From contig NZ_JAHUZE010000001.1 of assembly GCF_019218265.1 (NCBI RefSeq), positions 1,054,001 through 1,118,000 on the forward strand: a stretch of DNA of 64,000 bases. The letters are read 5' to 3'. The notes under the pieces are model-generated. The model had not been told where the DNA came from. It did not search any database and was given only the letters and a program-made list of their open reading frames with translations. Position numbers and translations under genes: made by a program. The DNA is from Maritimibacter dapengensis (GTDB taxonomy: Bacteria; Pseudomonadota; Alphaproteobacteria; Rhodobacterales; Rhodobacteraceae). Below are positions 3,198-10,626 of the stretch, in pieces. Every line of letters begins with the position of its first letter. Within the stretch, counting starts at the first letter, position 1.

Positions 3198-6100
3198 TCA
3201 GCCGAGTGGGAGGACGTCCAGCGCCATTTGGCGGCCGCCCTTCTGATAGACCAGCCGCGATGCGGATATGGCCGTGACCCGGCCTCCGTCGAGATTGTCG
3301 CCGATCGAAACCTTGACGTATCGCCCGGAAGACAGGCGCACGAGCGCGCGCCTGGAGGCATTGGAGCCATAGACGCCAATGAGGTTGATTTTGCGCAGGT
3401 TCAGGGCGTTCTTCATTGTCGCCGTTCGGGCAACCGACGCAGACGAGGGGATCGCGGGCTGCGTCGTTGCGGCGGCGGCTTCGATGACCTGGCCACTGTC
3501 GCCTGCGGATTGTTCCGGTTCGGGTGGGCGTTCGCGCGTGCGCGCCTGAGCCACGGCGACGATTTCGGCCATGTTGCCCGGTCGGGTGCTTGGCCGGACC
3601 GATGCGTTCACGGCGAGATCGGTAGCGGCGACGATGGCGGTTTCATCAGGCTCGGACACTTCGTCTTCGAGCGGATCGGCGGCATCCGCCGTTTCGGTTT
3701 CGTCTCCGTCCTCGGCAGGTGACTCCGCCTCGGCCTCGGCCACAGCGACGTCGATGTCGAGATCGGACGGACGGGCGCGCGGCGAGACCTGGCCCAATTC
3801 CGCGACGGTCTGCCCGCCGAGGCGCGCGCGTTCGGCAAGTTCGTTGAGGTTGCCCGGGCGTGTGCGCGGCGTGAGGCCTGGATCTTCAGCGAGATCCGGC
3901 GCGAGGGCGGCGTCATCCTGCACCTCGGGGGCGGGGACGATGCCTTCGGGACGCGGCGCCGGGGTGACGGGCGGGCGACCTTGGGTCACGAGAACGCCGA
4001 CAGGGGAAACCGAGCCTTCGGGCGTTGCGATCACCAGGCCGTCTTCGTTCAGGTCGAAGGTGGTGCCCGGTGGGGGCGGCGGGGGCGGTGCGATCGGGCT
4101 CTCGCCGCCGACAGGGCCAAGGTCGGGCAAGGCCAGCGCATCGTTCGAAGAAATCGCGGGGTCGATCGACGCCACGTAGATGTCATCGCCGCGTGCGGTG
4201 TCGGGGTCAGCGGGCGTGTCGGGGGCGCGCACCCAGACGCCGGTCGATGCATAGGATTCGGCAGCTTCCTCGGGCGTCGGGCGATCCCCGCTCGGGGTCG
4301 GCGTTGTCGCGACGTCCGGCGCCGGTTCTTCGACCGCCGCTTCCTCGGCCAAGGGCTCGGGCTCTTCGACCGGGGCAGGTATTGCCGTTTCGGTTTCAGG
4401 TTCCGGATTGAAGAGGGCCGCGTCTTCGTCCGTAAGAATGAACGTCGACCAGAGCGCGGCGCCTGCGAGAAGCAGGAGAAGAAGCAACGTCAGTATCAGG
4501 CCCATTCCAACGGACGAGCGTTTCTGCGCAGTGCTTTGTCCGCGGCGCGCGCCGAAGACGGTAAGCGCTTCGGCTTCCTTGGCGCGGGGGGATTTCTCGG
4601 AGTCGCCCGGCGGTTTGGCTTCGACTGTTGCGCCACGATCCTTGCGGCCCAGGAACCCACGGCGTTTCGCAGGTGGTTCCGTTTCGGCCGGCTCGGGGTC
4701 GGAGATTTGCGACGGTTCCGGGTCCGGCGTGCCGGGAAGGTCGTCGATCTGCGGCGGTATCAGGGCCGTTTCACCGGGCTTGTCTTTCGCAGCAGACGCT
4801 TTCGCCTCGGCACGGCGGGCCAAACCAGAGCGCACATCGGCAATCCGGCCCGAAAGGCGGCTTCCAAGTCCTGCCTTGTCGGAGGCGTCGTCGGCAGCGT
4901 CTGCGGGCGCATGGCCGAGCGCGCGCGCCATTGCGAGACGTTGTTTCTCGGCCTCGCCAACCAGACGCGGGGCGGGTGGTGGATCGTCCACGATCACCTT
5001 GGGCGAAGGTGCAGTGCGCGTCTCGCCCTGAACATCGCTTGTAATTTCAGGCGTTTTCGCGCCCGTTGTCGCACCCTCGTCAGTGCCAGGCGTGTCGCGG
5101 CGGGTCGAGAACGAAGGTTCTTGGGCCTGCGCCTCGTCGGGCTTGGTCTGTTTGCGTTGGTTCTTTCCTTGCCCAGACGCCTTTATGGCCGGGGCAGGTG
5201 GCAGGTTGTCATCATCTGATCTCTGAACCGGTCGGTAGCTTTTGGTGTCGGTTGCGTCGTCCGGCGTCGGCGGGAAAGGCGCGAGGATCGGCGTGGTGAC
5301 CACTTCGCGCTGGCCCGATTTTCGCGATCCGGCCGTGCTGCGTTTTCCAGCCCCTTTGCGGCCTGGGCCATCGGCCTGTGAAGATGTGTTCTTCGGCTCG
5401 GGTTGCGCGGTTTCACGCGGCTGAAACACCAGCTTTTCCGGCGCTTTCTGATCTTTTTGACCTGTCTCGGGGCGCTCTACGTCGGAGTCTGCCGTTTCCG
5501 GTTCGGTCGGCAACGTGCCCTGCAGCGTGGATGCGGCGGGTTCCGGCTCTTCCGGTTGAGGTTCGGGCGTCAGCTCTTTGCCGAGGTCCGGGAATGGGTC
5601 GATGTCGGCAGGTTCGGTCGGGTCCGGGTTTTCCGTTGCGGCCGGTGCCTGAGGCTCCTCAATCGGTTCGGGTTGTTCGGCCGGAGCCGTCGACTCATCG
5701 GTCTCGAGATCGCGGGGGTTCTTCGGGACCGGGGACGTGTCAGGAACCACACGTTCCGTCGGCGAAAGGATTTCGGAAGCCGCGTCGGTCTTGCCGAAGA
5801 AAGGCTCGCCAGAGAAGGCACCCTTTTCGGGGCGCGCGACGAAACTGACGGGATTGAAACCGAATTGCTTCGCGAAACCCTCGGCTTCTTCCATCGTCTC
5901 CCGCGCGAGCACCGCGACCCGAGCGGTTTCACCGTCGGCGCGCCAGTCGAACACCAGTTCAGAGACCGGGTAGGGCGTGAGCCCTTCCAGGGCGACTCGT
6001 ATCTGGACTTCGCGCGCGACGTCATCAGGGCCAGGGGCTTTGACCGTCGTGTAGAGGATCTGCGAATCCGGGATGACGAGCTTGGTGGTGAGTTGCCCGT

Positions 6101-6257
6101 CCGCAAGGGAATCGGCACGATCACGCAGCTCCGCGAGATGGTCCGACATCTTCGGGTCGTCGAGTGCGACTTCGCCCAAGCGCACCCAGCCACCCTTCTT
6201 GCGAAAGAGGACACTGATGCCGTCATGGCTGAGATCAAGCGCAAAATCCGGCTTCAT
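3198..6257 (-). CDS. Single-span protein with PilM/GspL-like N-terminus and PilP/GspC-like C-terminus
   Basis: A 1019-residue protein. Residues 1-~160 (begins MKPDFALDLSHDGISVLF) resemble the actin-like cytoplasmic fold of PilM/GspL: a phosphate-1-like DLSHDGI start, a strand-rich core and LDGL/EGLTPYP-type elements. Residues ~165-580 are a long Pro/Glu/Lys-rich, low-complexity linker. One transmembrane helix (about 583-607, leucine-rich) is followed by a second acidic Pro-rich linker, with repeated R-x-RPGN/RPSD boxes, and a final ~70-residue globular piece (NLRKINLIGVYGS...GRYVKVSIGD) that resembles the periplasmic homology region of PilP/GspC. So one chain would link the cytoplasm to the outer periplasm. 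No other pilus or secretion gene is nearby. Function is unknown; the domain reading is by pattern only and needs profile comparison. Confidence 0.6.
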   Translation of the reverse strand: MKPDFALDLSHDGISVLFRKKGGWVRLGEVALDDPKMSDHLAELRDRADSLADGQLTTKLVIPDSQILYTTVKAPGPDDVAREVQIRVALEGLTPYPVSELVFDWRADGETARVAVLARETMEEAEGFAKQFGFNPVSFVARPEKGAFSGEPFFGKTDAASEILSPTERVVPDTSPVPKNPRDLETDESTAPAEQPEPIEEPQAPAATENPDPTEPADIDPFPDLGKELTPEPQPEEPEPAASTLQGTLPTEPETADSDVERPETGQKDQKAPEKLVFQPRETAQPEPKNTSSQADGPGRKGAGKRSTAGSRKSGQREVVTTPILAPFPPTPDDATDTKSYRPVQRSDDDNLPPAPAIKASGQGKNQRKQTKPDEAQAQEPSFSTRRDTPGTDEGATTGAKTPEITSDVQGETRTAPSPKVIVDDPPPAPRLVGEAEKQRLAMARALGHAPADAADDASDKAGLGSRLSGRIADVRSGLARRAEAKASAAKDKPGETALIPPQIDDLPGTPDPEPSQISDPEPAETEPPAKRRGFLGRKDRGATVEAKPPGDSEKSPRAKEAEALTVFGARRGQSTAQKRSSVGMGLILTLLLLLLLAGAALWSTFILTDEDAALFNPEPETETAIPAPVEEPEPLAEEAAVEEPAPDVATTPTPSGDRPTPEEAAESYASTGVWVRAPDTPADPDTARGDDIYVASIDPAISSNDALALPDLGPVGGESPIAPPPPPPPGTTFDLNEDGLVIATPEGSVSPVGVLVTQGRPPVTPAPRPEGIVPAPEVQDDAALAPDLAEDPGLTPRTRPGNLNELAERARLGGQTVAELGQVSPRARPSDLDIDVAVAEAEAESPAEDGDETETADAADPLEDEVSEPDETAIVAATDLAVNASVRPSTRPGNMAEIVAVAQARTRERPPEPEQSAGDSGQVIEAAAATTQPAIPSSASVARTATMKNALNLRKINLIGVYGSNASRRALVRLSSGRYVKVSIGDNLDGGRVTAISASRLVYQKGGRQMALDVLPLG

Positions 6258-6641
6258 GGCGCGTGCTTGTCTGCTTCCCTCTAAAGTTGGGCCCGTTCCG
6301 TTTGCGGCTTCGGGGCCCGAAAGTTCTTGGGAAACTATAGCAGGTCACTGTGCAAGGAAAGCGAAACGGGGCGAGTTTTCGAGTTTGGGCCGGATAATCC
6401 AAGACTCGCGCGGCTTTTTGCCGAAAGTTGCGGGAATTCCAGTGAAATTTTCCGCTGCGGCTTGAACGACGGGTGCGGGAATCAGCCTGAGCAACGCGGC
6501 GTTTGTGTTTGAAAAGTCCAAACCCGGCGTACTGCCGGTTGGCCGTATGGTGACGGCGTTGGAGCACATTTCCGCCTCCACAGGAACCGGAGGTGCGAAT
6601 AGTGCGATCCGGTTGCCGACCGCGCGAGGTGGTGACGCAAA
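6258..6641. other. Divergent intergenic region between the 1019-aa gene and the GTA remnant
   Basis: These 384 bases separate two divergently transcribed genes and should hold both promoters. I see no convincing ORF: the open frames crossing it on the minus strand run antisense into g1 and look like shadows. A run of A/T-rich patches (around 6336-6350 and 6440-6455) is compatible with promoters, but no clean -35/-10 pair was found. Confidence 0.4.
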
Positions 6642-6983
6642 ATGAGTGAGACTTCCGACAATTCCAATCCACCGCTCGAGGCGGACGTCGATGTTCATGT
6701 CGTCGCAAAACGCAGTTTCCTGCGTGCGCTCAAAGCATTCAACGCAGCGATGGCCGAACTGGAGGCCGATCCGTCGATCGACCTTGCCGATGCGAGAAGT
6801 CGTTCCGCCGAGTTGCGCCGGACCATGCAGACCGTTCTCGAAGAAAGGAAACGCTGTGAAGAGTATGCAAACCGGCGGCAGGACGGCAGTGAACAAAGAG
6901 ATGGCGCGTTCGATACCGAACAGGCGCGGGCGCAGATCGAACGCCGCCTGGCTCGCATCCGCCGCGCCGAGGATCAAGGCTGA
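6642..6983 (+). CDS. Gene transfer agent g1 homologue, probable small terminase subunit
   Basis: A 113-residue, highly charged, helical protein (MSETSDNSNPPLEADVDVH at the start, then LRALKAFNAAMAELEADPS). In RcGTA-type clusters of Rhodobacterales a protein of about this size lies directly upstream of, and overlaps, the large terminase gene; it has been shown in Rhodobacter capsulatus to act as the small terminase that recruits DNA. Position, size, helical character and overlap with the terminase-derived reading frame support the call; sequence identity was not testable here. It appears intact although the genes it serves are deleted, so it may now be non-functional or be drifting. Start: ATG at 6642 preceded by a weak GGTGACGCAAA leader. 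Confidence 0.65.
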   Translation: MSETSDNSNPPLEADVDVHVVAKRSFLRALKAFNAAMAELEADPSIDLADARSRSAELRRTMQTVLEERKRCEEYANRRQDGSEQRDGAFDTEQARAQIERRLARIRRAEDQG

Positions 6984-9366
6984 CTTCCTCGATCAGCTGT
7001 CGGCCTCGGAATTGCAGGCCCTGCCATTCCTGTTCGAGTTCTGGGCACTGGACCATCAGGTGCCGCCGGGCGGCCCGTGGCGATCTTGGGTCATCCTTGG
7101 GGGACGAGGAGCGGGAAAGACGCGTGCTGGGGCGGAATGGGTCCGGTCCGAGGTCGAAGGTCATACGCCACGGTCTGCCGGGAAGTCGCGTCGCGTCGCA
7201 CTGATCGGCGAGACGTTCGAGCAGGTGCGGGCGGTCATGATCTTCGGCGAGTCCGGCATTCTGGCCTGTTCGCCGCCTGACCGGCGCCCGGTCTGGGAAG
7301 CCACACGCCGTCAGCTGGTCTGGCCGAACGGGGCCGTGGCGCAGGCGTTTTCCGCATCGGAGCCCGAAGCGCTCAGGGGCCCGCAGTTCGACGCGGCCTG
7401 GGCCGACGAGATTGGCTGCGCAGCAATCGACAAGGGGACCAACGAGCCCAACAAATTCGTTGATCCGAAATCGTCGGAAAGTGCGTTGCCTCGATTTTCG
7501 AACGGTCGGTGCGACGATTTCATGCAGGCACAGTATCTTCGGGCGCTTAGAGAGTATTGGGAAGACCCGGACAACAACCCGGTCGACCCCCAGACCGGCG
7601 TTCAGATGGTCGACATGGCCCGCGCTCATGTCTGGGCATGGGACGCCCGACCGTATCCCTGGTTTCCGAACCGGCGCGGGCTCTGGGGAGATTGGCCGAA
7701 TTACGAGCGCGGCCATTGGCTCAACGGGCGCGCTTCGATGCGCAGCCTCGAAAGCGTGGTCTCGGAGATCTGTCACCGCTCGGGCGTCACGGCCATCGAC
7801 ACGACGCGCCTTTATGGCAGCTTGCGCGGATACACCGTCGGTGACGTGACCGACGCACGGGCCGCGCTTCAGCCGTTGATGACGGCTTACGGTTTCGAGG
7901 CCGCCGAACGCGACGGCGTGGTCGCTTTCTTCACGCGAAGCGGGAAACCCGGAGCCGAACTGGAACCGGAACGTTTCGCGGTCAGTGATGAGGTCGAAGG
8001 TGACTTGCAGCTCACCCGTGCGCCGGAAGCCGACCTCGCCGGCCGCGTGCGTCTGAGTTTTGCCGAAGAGGGCGGGGATTACGGCGCACGCGCGACCGAG
8101 GCGGTGTTCGCGGATGAAGAGACGCACGGGGTGTCGGTATCCGAACTTCCCCTCGTCCTGACCTCTTCGGAAGCACAGGCCATAGCGGAGCGTTGGCTGG
8201 CCCAGTCGCGGGTTTCTCAGGACAGGGCGCGGTTTGCTCTCGCGCCGTCGGACATGTCCTGCCGGGCCGGCGACGTGGTGCGGATCGGGACCGAGACGGG
8301 GGCGGCGGACTTCCGCATCGACCGTGTCGAACATGCCGGGATGCAGATTGTTCAGGCCGTGCGTGTGGAACCAGGCGTTTTCGAGGCCGGGGAGGCAGGC
8401 GACCGCCCTCCACGGTTGTCGGGTTTCACACCATCGGTGCCGGTGACGGCGATCTGGTTGGATCTGCCCCTTCTGACCGGCGACGAAGTGGAGCACGCGC
8501 CCCATCTTGCCGTCGTCGCGGACCCCTGGCCGGGGGATGTTTCGGTTTTCTCGTCGGCCACCGACAATGGGTATCGCCTCAATCGCGTGATCCGTCGCCC
8601 CGCGCTATTCGGCGTGACCGAAAACGCGATGCCGAAAGCTTCGCCGGGTCTCATTGACTGCGGTCCCGCCTTGCGGGTCAGGATGCCACGCGGCGCGCTG
8701 TCTTCGTCGGGCGAGACCGCGATGCTCAATGGCTCGAACGTTGCGGCGATCGGGCTGGGTGGACCCGACGGATGGGAAATCTTTCAATTCGCGGAAGCGG
8801 TTCTCGTCGAGGAGGGGGTGTACGAGCTGTCGGGGCGGTTGCGCGGGCAGGCGGGAAGCGATCCGTTCATTCCCGAAACATGGGACGCCGGGGCGATGGT
8901 CGTGTTCCTTGATCGGGCCGTGCGCCAGATCGGGCTACCGCGATCGGCGCGGGGATTTGAGCGGCACTACCGCATCGGCCCGGCATCCGAGCCGCTGGAC
9001 GATGAGAGCCATGTGCATGAAATCGTGGCGACGAACGGCGTCGGTTTGCGTCCTTACCGCCCCGTCCATTTGGCGAGCGCGTGGAACGCGGGAGATCTTT
9101 CGGTTCGCTGGATCCGGCGGTCCCGTATTGACGGCGATTCATGGCAAGGCTTTGAGGTGCCGATCGGGCATGGGGGCGAACAATACTCCGTGCGCGTGGT
9201 TCATGACGGAACCGTCGTGCGTGAGGCGACGGTGACGGCGCCGATATGGACTTACACGGCCGGGATGCAGGCTGCCGATGAGGTGACGCGTCCCTTCAAG
9301 GTCGACGTCGCGCAGGTGTCCCAGAGTTTCGGGCCAGGGCCTGCGGCGCGGATCGAGATCAACTGA
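6889..9366 (+). CDS. In-frame chimera: GTA large terminase N-terminus fused to GTA g15 C-terminal half
   Basis: An 825-residue open frame made of two unrelated gene transfer agent proteins. Residues 1-~174 are the N-terminal ATPase part of the large terminase (g2): FLFEFWALDHQVPP, the Walker A loop ILGGRGAGKTRAGAEW, then RGPQFDAAWADE, which holds the Walker B acidic pair. At 7405-7415 the sequence switches to the middle of g15, the baseplate/host-specificity protein: IGCAAIDKGTNEPNKF, DPKSSESALPRFS, MVDMARAHVWAWDARP (end of its TIM-barrel-like domain), followed by ~600 residues of tail-associated beta-rich domains to its natural C-terminus. Missing are the terminase nuclease domain, g3-g14 and the first half of g15. 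The GTG at 6889 has AGGA five bases before it; ATG 6865 and ATG 6901 are alternatives. Such a product cannot package DNA; it is best viewed as a deletion remnant with an intact frame. Confidence 0.85.
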   Translation: MNKEMARSIPNRRGRRSNAAWLASAAPRIKADFLDQLSASELQALPFLFEFWALDHQVPPGGPWRSWVILGGRGAGKTRAGAEWVRSEVEGHTPRSAGKSRRVALIGETFEQVRAVMIFGESGILACSPPDRRPVWEATRRQLVWPNGAVAQAFSASEPEALRGPQFDAAWADEIGCAAIDKGTNEPNKFVDPKSSESALPRFSNGRCDDFMQAQYLRALREYWEDPDNNPVDPQTGVQMVDMARAHVWAWDARPYPWFPNRRGLWGDWPNYERGHWLNGRASMRSLESVVSEICHRSGVTAIDTTRLYGSLRGYTVGDVTDARAALQPLMTAYGFEAAERDGVVAFFTRSGKPGAELEPERFAVSDEVEGDLQLTRAPEADLAGRVRLSFAEEGGDYGARATEAVFADEETHGVSVSELPLVLTSSEAQAIAERWLAQSRVSQDRARFALAPSDMSCRAGDVVRIGTETGAADFRIDRVEHAGMQIVQAVRVEPGVFEAGEAGDRPPRLSGFTPSVPVTAIWLDLPLLTGDEVEHAPHLAVVADPWPGDVSVFSSATDNGYRLNRVIRRPALFGVTENAMPKASPGLIDCGPALRVRMPRGALSSSGETAMLNGSNVAAIGLGGPDGWEIFQFAEAVLVEEGVYELSGRLRGQAGSDPFIPETWDAGAMVVFLDRAVRQIGLPRSARGFERHYRIGPASEPLDDESHVHEIVATNGVGLRPYRPVHLASAWNAGDLSVRWIRRSRIDGDSWQGFEVPIGHGGEQYSVRVVHDGTVVREATVTAPIWTYTAGMQAADEVTRPFKVDVAQVSQSFGPGPAARIEIN

Positions 9367-9381: not shown

Positions 9382-9741
9382 TCACCCATTGGCGCAGGAG
9401 ATGCACGTCGGGACGGCAGGATCGAAGTTCAGTCGCGCTTCGGCGATCGCTTCGCCGCAGTCCATGCAAAACCCGTATTCACCTTCGTCGATCCGTTCGA
9501 AGGCTGCCGCGATCCTTTTGCGCTGGGCCTCGCGGCGTGCGGCCGTGGCCTTTGCCATCGCTTGCCCCTGCAATGCGTCCATGCGACTGAGCCGGCCGAC
9601 CGATTGCTGATCGAGTGTCACCACGTTCTTGCCGGCCTCGCCAAGCGCATCCTCAGCGTCTAACGCAGCCAGTGTTTCATCAAGTCGCTGGCGATACACT
9701 GCTATTTGCGCTTCATCCATGAGCGTGATTGATCCCATCAC
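9382..9741 (-). CDS. DksA/TraR-type zinc-finger protein
   Basis: A 119-residue member of the DksA/TraR family, which binds the secondary channel of RNA polymerase and modulates initiation. The helical N-terminal two thirds include VVTLDQQSVGRLSRMDALQG, and the C-terminus has a four-cysteine zinc motif CMDCGEAI...CISC, followed by an ordinary end. The acidic coiled-coil-tip pattern of classical DksA is not obvious, so it belongs to the shorter relatives. An internal ATG at 9720 (MDEAQIAVYRQ) may be the real start, since neither has a strong ribosome site. It is convergent with the GTA chimera (15-base gap) and divergent from cysE; from memory, the order GTA g15, DksA/TraR, cysE is common in roseobacters. 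Confidence 0.85.
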   Translation of the reverse strand: MMGSITLMDEAQIAVYRQRLDETLAALDAEDALGEAGKNVVTLDQQSVGRLSRMDALQGQAMAKATAARREAQRKRIAAAFERIDEGEYGFCMDCGEAIAEARLNFDPAVPTCISCANG

Positions 9742-9807
9742 AGGTTTGCGTTTGGAAAATCGACCCTATCTGGGGTATCAGGACCACGCAACAACATGGA
9801 GCCAGGC

Positions 9808-10626
9808 ATGGCCAAAGCCGACATACAGCCCCGGATCGTCGATCCCGTTTGGGACAGGATCACCTCGGAAGCCCACGAAGCGGTGGCCAAGGAGCCGCTT
9901 ATGGGCGGGCTAATTCATGCCTGTATCCTGCACCACAAGACGCTGGCCAAAGCGCTGTCCTACCGCATCGCCGCGAAGCTTTCGTCGAACGAAATGTCGA
10001 TGATGGTCTTGCGCGAGGTCGCGAACGAGGCCTACGCGGTCTCACCCGAACTGGTGGAAGCGGCGCGCGCCGACCTCTCTGCGGTCATGGAGCGTGATCC
10101 CGCGACGCATCGGATGCTTCAGCCGATCCTTTACTTCAAGGGCTTCCAGGGGATGCAGGCGCACCGGCTCGCGCATTGGCTCTGGGAAGAGGGGCGCGAG
10201 GATCTTGCCTACTTCCTGCAGATGCGCTGCTCCGAGGTCTATGGCATCGACATCCACCCTGCCGCGCGAATCGGTAAGGGAATCATGATCGACCACGCGC
10301 ATTCCATCGTGATTGGTGAAACCGCGGTCGTGGGAGACAATGTGTCGATGCTTCATTCGGTGACGCTCGGCGGAACCGGGAAAGAAGAAGAGGACCGGCA
10401 TCCGAAGATCGGAGACGAAGTTCTGATCGGGGCAGGGGCCAAAGTGCTTGGCAATATCACCGTCGGATGCTGTTCGCGGATTGCCGCAGGCTCGGTCGTT
10501 CTGTCCGATGTGCCGCCCGCGTCTACCGTCGCAGGCGTGCCCGCCAAGGTTGTGGGCGAGGCCGGGTGCGAGCATCCGTCGGTGTCGATGAACCAGATGT
10601 TCGGACCCCGCGCCGCCGAGGAGTGA
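9808..10626 (+). CDS. cysE: Serine O-acetyltransferase
   Basis: CysE transfers acetyl from acetyl-CoA to L-serine, the first committed step of cysteine synthesis, in the cytoplasm. The 272-residue product has the helical N-terminal domain (DRITSEAHEAVAKEPLMG) and the left-handed beta-helix of hexapeptide repeats, with IGKGIMIDHAHSIVIGE, containing the catalytic histidine region, and VSMLHSVTLGGTGK. Length is typical for the family. ATG 9808 is preferred over ATG 9796 because GGAG lies six bases before it. It is monocistronic by appearance, with the DksA/TraR gene divergent upstream. No Cys-responsive leader was seen. Confidence 0.97.
   Translation: MAKADIQPRIVDPVWDRITSEAHEAVAKEPLMGGLIHACILHHKTLAKALSYRIAAKLSSNEMSMMVLREVANEAYAVSPELVEAARADLSAVMERDPATHRMLQPILYFKGFQGMQAHRLAHWLWEEGREDLAYFLQMRCSEVYGIDIHPAARIGKGIMIDHAHSIVIGETAVVGDNVSMLHSVTLGGTGKEEEDRHPKIGDEVLIGAGAKVLGNITVGCCSRIAAGSVVLSDVPPASTVAGVPAKVVGEAGCEHPSVSMNQMFGPRAAEE

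Follow-up and report, generated by a model that had tools for sequence, protein, structure and literature searches.

The stretch analysed here (the window: 64,000 nucleotides of Maritimibacter dapengensis, contig NZ_JAHUZE010000001.1) carries the remains of a gene transfer agent (GTA) cluster of the RcGTA type, as known from Rhodobacter capsulatus (rcc01682-rcc01698). Below, G000 is the genome of the window, and other G, L and g codes denote genomes, loci and genera of the comparison. A single open frame on the forward strand (6889-9366, 825 codons and a stop) begins as the GTA large terminase, TerL, and continues as the second half of the megatron, the product of g15 (Table 1). This in-frame terminase-megatron frame is confirmed. 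A first-pass annotation of the same DNA had described one frame of about 825 codons running from the large-terminase ATPase into the last half of g15; the open reading frame (ORF) and the profile matches agree with it, and alignment assigns residues 1-174 to TerL (75-77% identity to the congeners G006 and G007) and the remainder to the megatron (71-73% identity to the same two genomes, nested within its own genus). The TerL part extends from the Walker A motif GGRGAGKT to the Walker B glutamate of FDAAWADE and matches Pfam Terminase_6N at 6982-7410 (E 4.5e-14, profile positions 2-104 of 215); TerL is incomplete in G000, the rest of the ATPase and the nuclease domain being lost and 174 residues left. 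From 7411 onwards the frame matches the NCBIfam model GTA_megatron, NF048004, over positions 649-1298 of 1299 with 749.6 bits, which is below the curated cut-off of 800 and does not make a complete megatron, as well as the Pfam families GTA_TIM (214-299 of 299), Phage-tail_3 and Rcc01698_C. The g1-like ORF upstream is open, as the first-pass annotation had said of g1; it shows 48% identity to the ORF at the same place in G006 and had no match in Pfam, NCBIfam or PHROGs. According to the accessible text of PMC6854486, the small terminase of RcGTA, gp1, binds the ATPase domain of TerL.

Table 1. Features of the fused locus and its flanks, in coordinates of the window.
Feature	Position	Strand	Basis or remark
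N-terminal part of GTA large terminase, residues 1-174	6889..7410	+	Pfam Terminase_6N; 75-77% identity to congener TerL
Junction codons GAG (TerL Glu 174) then ATT (first megatron residue)	7408..7413	+	identical codon-to-codon in 30/30 fused loci
C-terminal half of megatron (g15), NCBIfam model residues 649-1298	7411..9366	+	NF048004; alignment to RcGTA chain 6tba_8A
End of megatron peripheral domain	about 7411-7683	+	borders carried over from accessible text of PMC7296036
Megatron central domain	about 7684-8406	+	borders carried over from accessible text of PMC7296036
Megatron fibre-binding domain	about 8407-9363	+	borders carried over from accessible text of PMC7296036
g1-like ORF (small-terminase position), 113 amino acids	6642..6983	+	open; name from position and accessible text of PMC6854486
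Divergent 1019-residue gene, weak PilP-like match, left flank	3198..6257	-	relatives adjoin full cluster in 7/7 congener stretches
DksA/TraR zinc-finger protein, right flank	9382..9741	-	same place in 5/7 congener stretches
Serine acetyltransferase cysE, right flank	9796..10626	+	in 6/7 congener stretches

The window shares with an RcGTA-type cluster the type of locus, g1, the start of the TerL ATPase, the end of the megatron and the adjoining cysE; it differs in having no core genes (capsid tested) and in carrying TerL and megatron in one frame. In seven congeners the terminase and megatron genes lie far apart within a full cluster, and the points corresponding to the window's joint are separated by 11,062-11,301 bp. 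The deletion of about 12 kb between g2 and g15 proposed by the first-pass annotation is upheld as a loss of the core, and its size has to be reduced to the congener range; the full cluster expected at the same flanks in sister genomes was indeed there (Table 1). A megatron match was present within the fetched stretch of 77 of 80 cysE loci, and the title of PMC9552610 states that cysE1 loss impairs gene transfer by RcGTA.

Relocation of the core to another place in the genome was considered and rejected on the strength of capsid searches and, for G000, of a weak DNA search. G000 is reported as 100% complete in 20 contigs, and its one megatron match is that of the window. With the GTA capsid of G006 as query no match was obtained in G000, and the positive controls G007, G451 and G464 matched at 67-89%. 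A search of G000 with the core DNA of G006 was empty too, a weak test in which 40 of 94 candidates were scored and no positive control was run. Matches without stops to DUF2793, DUF6456 and GTA_holin_3TM, that is, unlinked GTA genes for tail fibre, GafA-type regulator and holin, are present in G000; we take DUF2793 to be the tail fibre and DUF6456 to be of the GafA type from the ties of these Pfam names to RcGTA genes.

The same codon-exact joint was found in 30 loci of at least 21 genus codes, with a gap of 0 in 30/30. A protein search of the family that was not tied to the junction (394 genomes, 393 genus codes) gave at least 14 genomes with one match spanning both halves, all 14 having the same joint with no gap or extra residue; with G368 and G086, added through later searches, fused genomes number at least 16/394. 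When 390 genomes of the order were scanned with a junction pattern, 20 matched, of which 19 were terminase-like (G540, not TerL-like by its letters, was excluded from the count), and the reversed control gave 0. A search of cysE loci added L029 (Ruegeria sediminis), L059 (Ruegeria sp. HKCCA6707) and L087 (uncultured Ruegeria 4-22), and L035, L064 and L091, which duplicate the contigs of G074, G271 and G659, were not counted. Asp-Glu before the joint is constant and the Walker B Asp is of the TerL type in 30/30 (Thr occupies this position in the intact megatron); the residue that follows the joint is variable (I, L, Y, F, M, T). In IMG/VR the junction pattern had 0 matches, and none of 46 GTA-related loci from P0001 contained W.DE.GC in any frame. 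As sequence findings, recurrence and exactness are solid. Literature searches, which reached few subscription papers, and the accessible text of PMC9836097, PMC6209664, PMC6854486, PMC7296036 and PMC10883770 gave no report of the fusion.

Other deletions ending in the same two genes were also seen. L106 (G025, about 6378-8222) encodes another in-frame terminase::megatron fusion of 615 amino acids, joined near TerL residue 58 to a megatron position that lies deeper in the protein than the common joint, by about 148 residues. L060 (Rhodobacteraceae bacterium KLH11, 8413-9253) has the TerL start, 64 bp and the last 100 megatron residues, apparently out of frame. L107 (G010), L108 (G020) and L198-L202 are further partial GTA deletions or breaks with varied breakpoints, of use as controls. 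Taken as a set (G010, G020, G025, KLH11, G464, G506, G613, G668, G107), such deletions resemble the fused loci in core loss and in terminase and/or megatron remnants; they differ in that their breakpoints vary and that an in-frame fusion was seen only in G025, at another place.

No capsid match was found in 23 of the 27 fused genomes searched, the other 4 having only prophage-like ones of 28-35% identity. DUF2793 was present in 24 of these 27 genomes and DUF6456 in all of them. In the 24 with an open chimera the DUF6456 frames had at least 360 amino acids and DUF2793 was found in 22; G168 (L118) and G123 (L116), the two open fusions where it was not detected, stand near each other on the megatron-half tree. 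In the broken-chimera genomes G343, G086 and G553 the DUF6456 frames were shortened to 198, 300 and 281 amino acids, respectively, and DUF2793 was open in G343, absent in G086 and interrupted by a stop in G553. Nine genomes with other GTA breaks had DUF2793 in 8 cases and DUF6456 in 9 (interrupted by stops or short in G010, G613 and G020), and 19 genomes with no match in the family protein search had them in 1 and 3. The holin was uninformative as an age marker, since 69 of 74 genomes had it, irrespective of whether they were fused, otherwise broken or intact. The DUF2793 gene lies directly 3' of the chimera in G171, G248, G408, G424, G458, G175, G110, G605 and G368, and far off in other genera.

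These counts also bear on whether the chimera is an assembly collapse or another data artefact. The evidence base does consist of assemblies, not reads; against an artefact stand the number of assemblies (30, some of 1-6 contigs), the lack of a long repeat at the two sites, the capsid results just given and the further decay of some fusions (G086, G343, G553 and L059), and we give this explanation hardly any credence.

How often the allele arose was addressed with trees of both halves. On the TerL-half DNA tree (77 of 81 rows; four with stops, L108, L159, L195 and L059, were left out) the fused state needs 22 changes, at least 15 of them forced by starred branches, and shows no clustering (shuffled mean 23.0); the megatron-half tree, of 132 rows, requires 21 changes, of which 18 or more are forced. 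The changes counted on both trees may include losses. In most cases each half falls among the intact clusters of its own genus, and the residue at +1 follows the genus, with a mean congener frequency of 0.877 against 0.186 if drawn from other-genus fusions (n=20). Own-genus halves and genus-specific joint residues argue for repeated formation from each lineage's own cluster.

The identical joint could instead be inherited, with no need of convergence, if one ancient fused allele had been maintained as a low-frequency polymorphism or transferred between species while recombination rewrote its flanks to the edge of non-homology. The fusions lie dispersed across the trees, as expected of a polymorphism, and both of their arms share homology with intact alleles as far as the joint, at which branch migration would be expected to stop. 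The Ruegeria-group loci L115 and L087 have related megatron halves and different TerL-half neighbours, in the stretch 60-120 bp before the joint the fusions within g68, and likewise those within g402, resemble one another more closely, and the fused pairs nearest relative to cysE are congeners (g402 pairs and L115/L087, residuals -0.16 to -0.11). Common descent would, however, demand persistence through the history of the family, and the genus-specific +1 residue speaks against it. Between genera no fusion-specific haplotype, and no significant excess similarity among fusions, was detected near the joint in 13 windows down to the last 9 bp (one-sided permutation P 0.10-0.94), and over 406 fused pairs the megatron halves showed no more closeness than expected from cysE (mean residual +0.009). 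That a single fused haplotype had spread between genera was rejected, neither the joint windows nor the cysE residuals giving any signal of it; common descent as a whole we judge unlikely, though deserving of serious weight. Within genera the bins were alike except 60-120 bp before the joint (for the g318 fusion L197, C-side bins beyond the first 30 bp are out of register through an indel and not meaningful). On the megatron-half tree G110 neighbours G248, and G635 neighbours G573.

The feature common to the two sites is a glutamate codon, that of Walker B in the terminase and that of the TE-x-G motif in the megatron, a motif which resembles the nucleophile motif of clan GH-A glycosidases. Their DNA is unremarkable. 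Across 45 intact clusters, the exact runs found within 9 bp of the joint had maximum lengths of 2-8 bp, and over 20 bp the TerL x megatron position pairs that matched equally well or better made up a median of 18% of all pairs. Near the sites, third-codon positions varied about as elsewhere (TerL 0.41 vs 0.47, megatron 0.50 vs 0.50). Each of the seven congener clusters contained 1199-2497 repeats of exactly 8 bp, and longer ones, at least 3 kb apart. Since the sites share the Glu codon and their DNA is unremarkable, it is the protein and not the DNA that is indicated. The shared GAG-AT at 7408-7412, which the first-pass annotation had proposed as the probable site of the joining, is unconvincing as a microhomology behind the deletion in view of these run lengths. 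Three DNA-level candidates were rejected: a microhomology hot spot was insufficient, with short runs at the joint and many equal or longer repeats elsewhere; a DNA recognition site was not supported, synonymous conservation being raised at neither site; and a hairpin bridging both sites had inner-flank complementarity with a mean z of 0.24 and a highest value of 2.21.

A private, recent and neutral scar left by a chance deletion at such a short microhomology, broadly the main line of the first-pass annotation, would fit the grouping of the window's halves with their own genus and the absence of the deletion from the seven congeners. It is contradicted by the same codon-exact joint in 29 other loci (at least 21 genus codes with the window included) and by at least 15-18 forced state changes, and the short runs near the joint contrast with the many 8-bp and longer repeats of each congener cluster; we consider it very improbable. 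Known deletion mechanisms would hardly account for two unrelated genes, with little DNA homology at their sites, being joined again and again at the same codons. Such joining could be the work of a precise excision, by site-specific or guided recombination, that removes the core repeatedly and leaves the open frame as a by-product, most fusions being recent. The exact joint, the few clades, the own-genus flanks and the mostly intact remaining GTA loci would all suit such a process; the freely varying synonymous positions at both sites, the ordinary likeness of the position pairs and the lack of complementary inner flanks do not. No recognition or core sequence shared by both sites was found, with a 2-bp core such as GA still compatible. 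We know of no recombinase for such an excision (no search for one was made). The excess amino-acid change in the Ruegeria-group fusions, described below, also speaks against all of them being fresh, and we rate precise excision as improbable.

The chimera is open in 26 of the 30 loci (frames of at least 827 amino acids) and broken in G343, G086, G553 and L059. Ratios of nonsynonymous to synonymous change (N/S) on terminal branches were obtained from trios for 28/30 fusions (N half) and 22/29 (C half; L194 was too short and seven were skipped for distance), with intact sisters that were chosen by distance and reused, so that the tests are not independent. In the Ruegeria group N/S was clearly raised (central domain 0.58 vs 0.30, fibre-binding domain 0.76 vs 0.52), and in g402 it was not (0.26 vs 0.23 and 0.46 vs 0.55). 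The closest Ruegeria-group fusions had a pairwise dN/dS in the TerL half of 0.04-0.10, like intact pairs. For the seven open Ruegeria-group fusions neutrality predicts about 14 stops, giving a probability of 8e-7 that all are open, indels not counted; the estimate covers 7/8 fusions of the group (the decayed L059 was left out) and takes the raised N/S to be neutral drift dating from after the deletion. Under these assumptions neutrality is rejected for the seven fusions, which points to selection on the frame. Such selection is likely from these comparisons, and very recent deletions together with another cause of the raised N/S would fit as well. The first-pass annotation had left a choice between a recent event and a useful chimera; utility is now favoured, given the open frames and the neutral decay rejected under these assumptions for the seven Ruegeria-group fusions.

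We propose, with a probability of roughly 45%, that the chimera is a deletion allele of the Rhodobacteraceae GTA locus that recurs with codon exactness, is mostly held open by selection and is possibly a non-producer allele. A deletion of 11-12 kb would remove the end of TerL, the portal, protease, capsid and tail genes and the first half of the megatron, leaving the Walker B glutamate codon of TerL right next to the codon that follows the megatron's own conserved glutamate. The allele would have formed separately in many lineages, and its frame would have been kept by selection. Its exactness might come from selection on the protein product, a complete Walker A/B half plus a baseplate half, rather than from a DNA site. 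As a non-producer allele it might spare the cell lytic GTA production. What is left might act as an adhesion or interference module made of g1, the first TerL ATPase part, the fibre-binding megatron end and usually the tail-fibre gene. The accessible text of PMC7296036 divides the megatron into iris/penetration (1-46), adhesin-like (47-229), peripheral (230-744), central (745-984) and fibre-binding (985-1304) domains and has it carry the tail fibres. On these borders the chimera appears to keep g1, the first TerL ATPase part and the central and fibre-binding domains, and to lose the nuclease, iris and adhesin-like parts; the function that we prefer is that of a non-producer allele with a fibre-binding module. 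Stated more broadly, the balance tips slightly towards a chimera assembled independently and codon-exactly many times in one family, through either a selected GTA-cheater or interference function or an undescribed precise excision.

Several observations weigh against a selected, recurrently formed chimera. To choose one exact codon junction among millions would be a strong demand on selection, and no near-miss joints at an offset were seen, the junction pattern search being unable to show any. AlphaFold gave no confident chimeric fold at or after the joint: mean predicted local distance difference test (pLDDT) was 74.5 and the predicted template modelling score (pTM) 0.52, from an alignment of 59 rows of which six were fused. 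Residues 175-221 and 233-260 were below 50, 175-282 mostly below 55, and the Walker A motif was low; block means were 73-92 over residues 81-160, and most of 291-825 was confident. Terminal-branch N/S was 0.66 in fused against 0.64 in intact sisters for the TerL half and slightly raised, 0.87 against 0.76 (P 0.0035), for the megatron half, both of which fit very recent deletions. Median pairwise dN/dS of the TerL half rose from 0.087 in intact-intact pairs through 0.181 to 0.233 in fused-fused pairs, a rise that may reflect relaxation or sampling. The unlinked GTA genes are mostly retained in otherwise broken genomes also, so that their retention may only mean recency. As to origin, fusions cluster to some extent on the megatron-half tree (shuffled mean 26.5, 1/500 as low), and 60-120 bp before the joint the distance between fusions is smaller than that between fusion and intact cluster (g68, 0.122 vs 0.148; g402, 0.111 vs 0.212). 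The few clades of fusions are odd for a useful gene unless it is an evolutionary dead end or a within-species polymorphism.

Precise internal excisions that restore an in-frame gene occur in the skin/sigK and nifD elements. Here, by contrast, no att-like repeat was found and the two halves come from different genes. A twiggy distribution over the tree, like that of the fused allele, is known from asexual lineages. Pseudogenised or lost GTA clusters have been proposed as cheater lineages (Kogay and Zhaxybayeva 2024, PMC10883770). The accessible part of that work states that clusters which were incomplete were set aside, and its text contains neither the word fusion nor the word terminase. Such cheater lineages resemble the fused loci in being non-producers derived from producers and scattered over the tree; they differ in that their decay is random, whereas the chimera is identical, codon-exact and mostly open. 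The accessible texts of PMC10883770 and PMC6209664 treat the persistence of GTA production in the face of cheaters, despite its being lethal to the producer, as an open question. To this question the fused locus would bring a recognisable, sequence-defined non-producer allele present in about 4-5% of the sampled genomes (at least 16/394 and at least 19/390). If true, either a selected chimera or a precise excision would be a new kind of evolutionary event.

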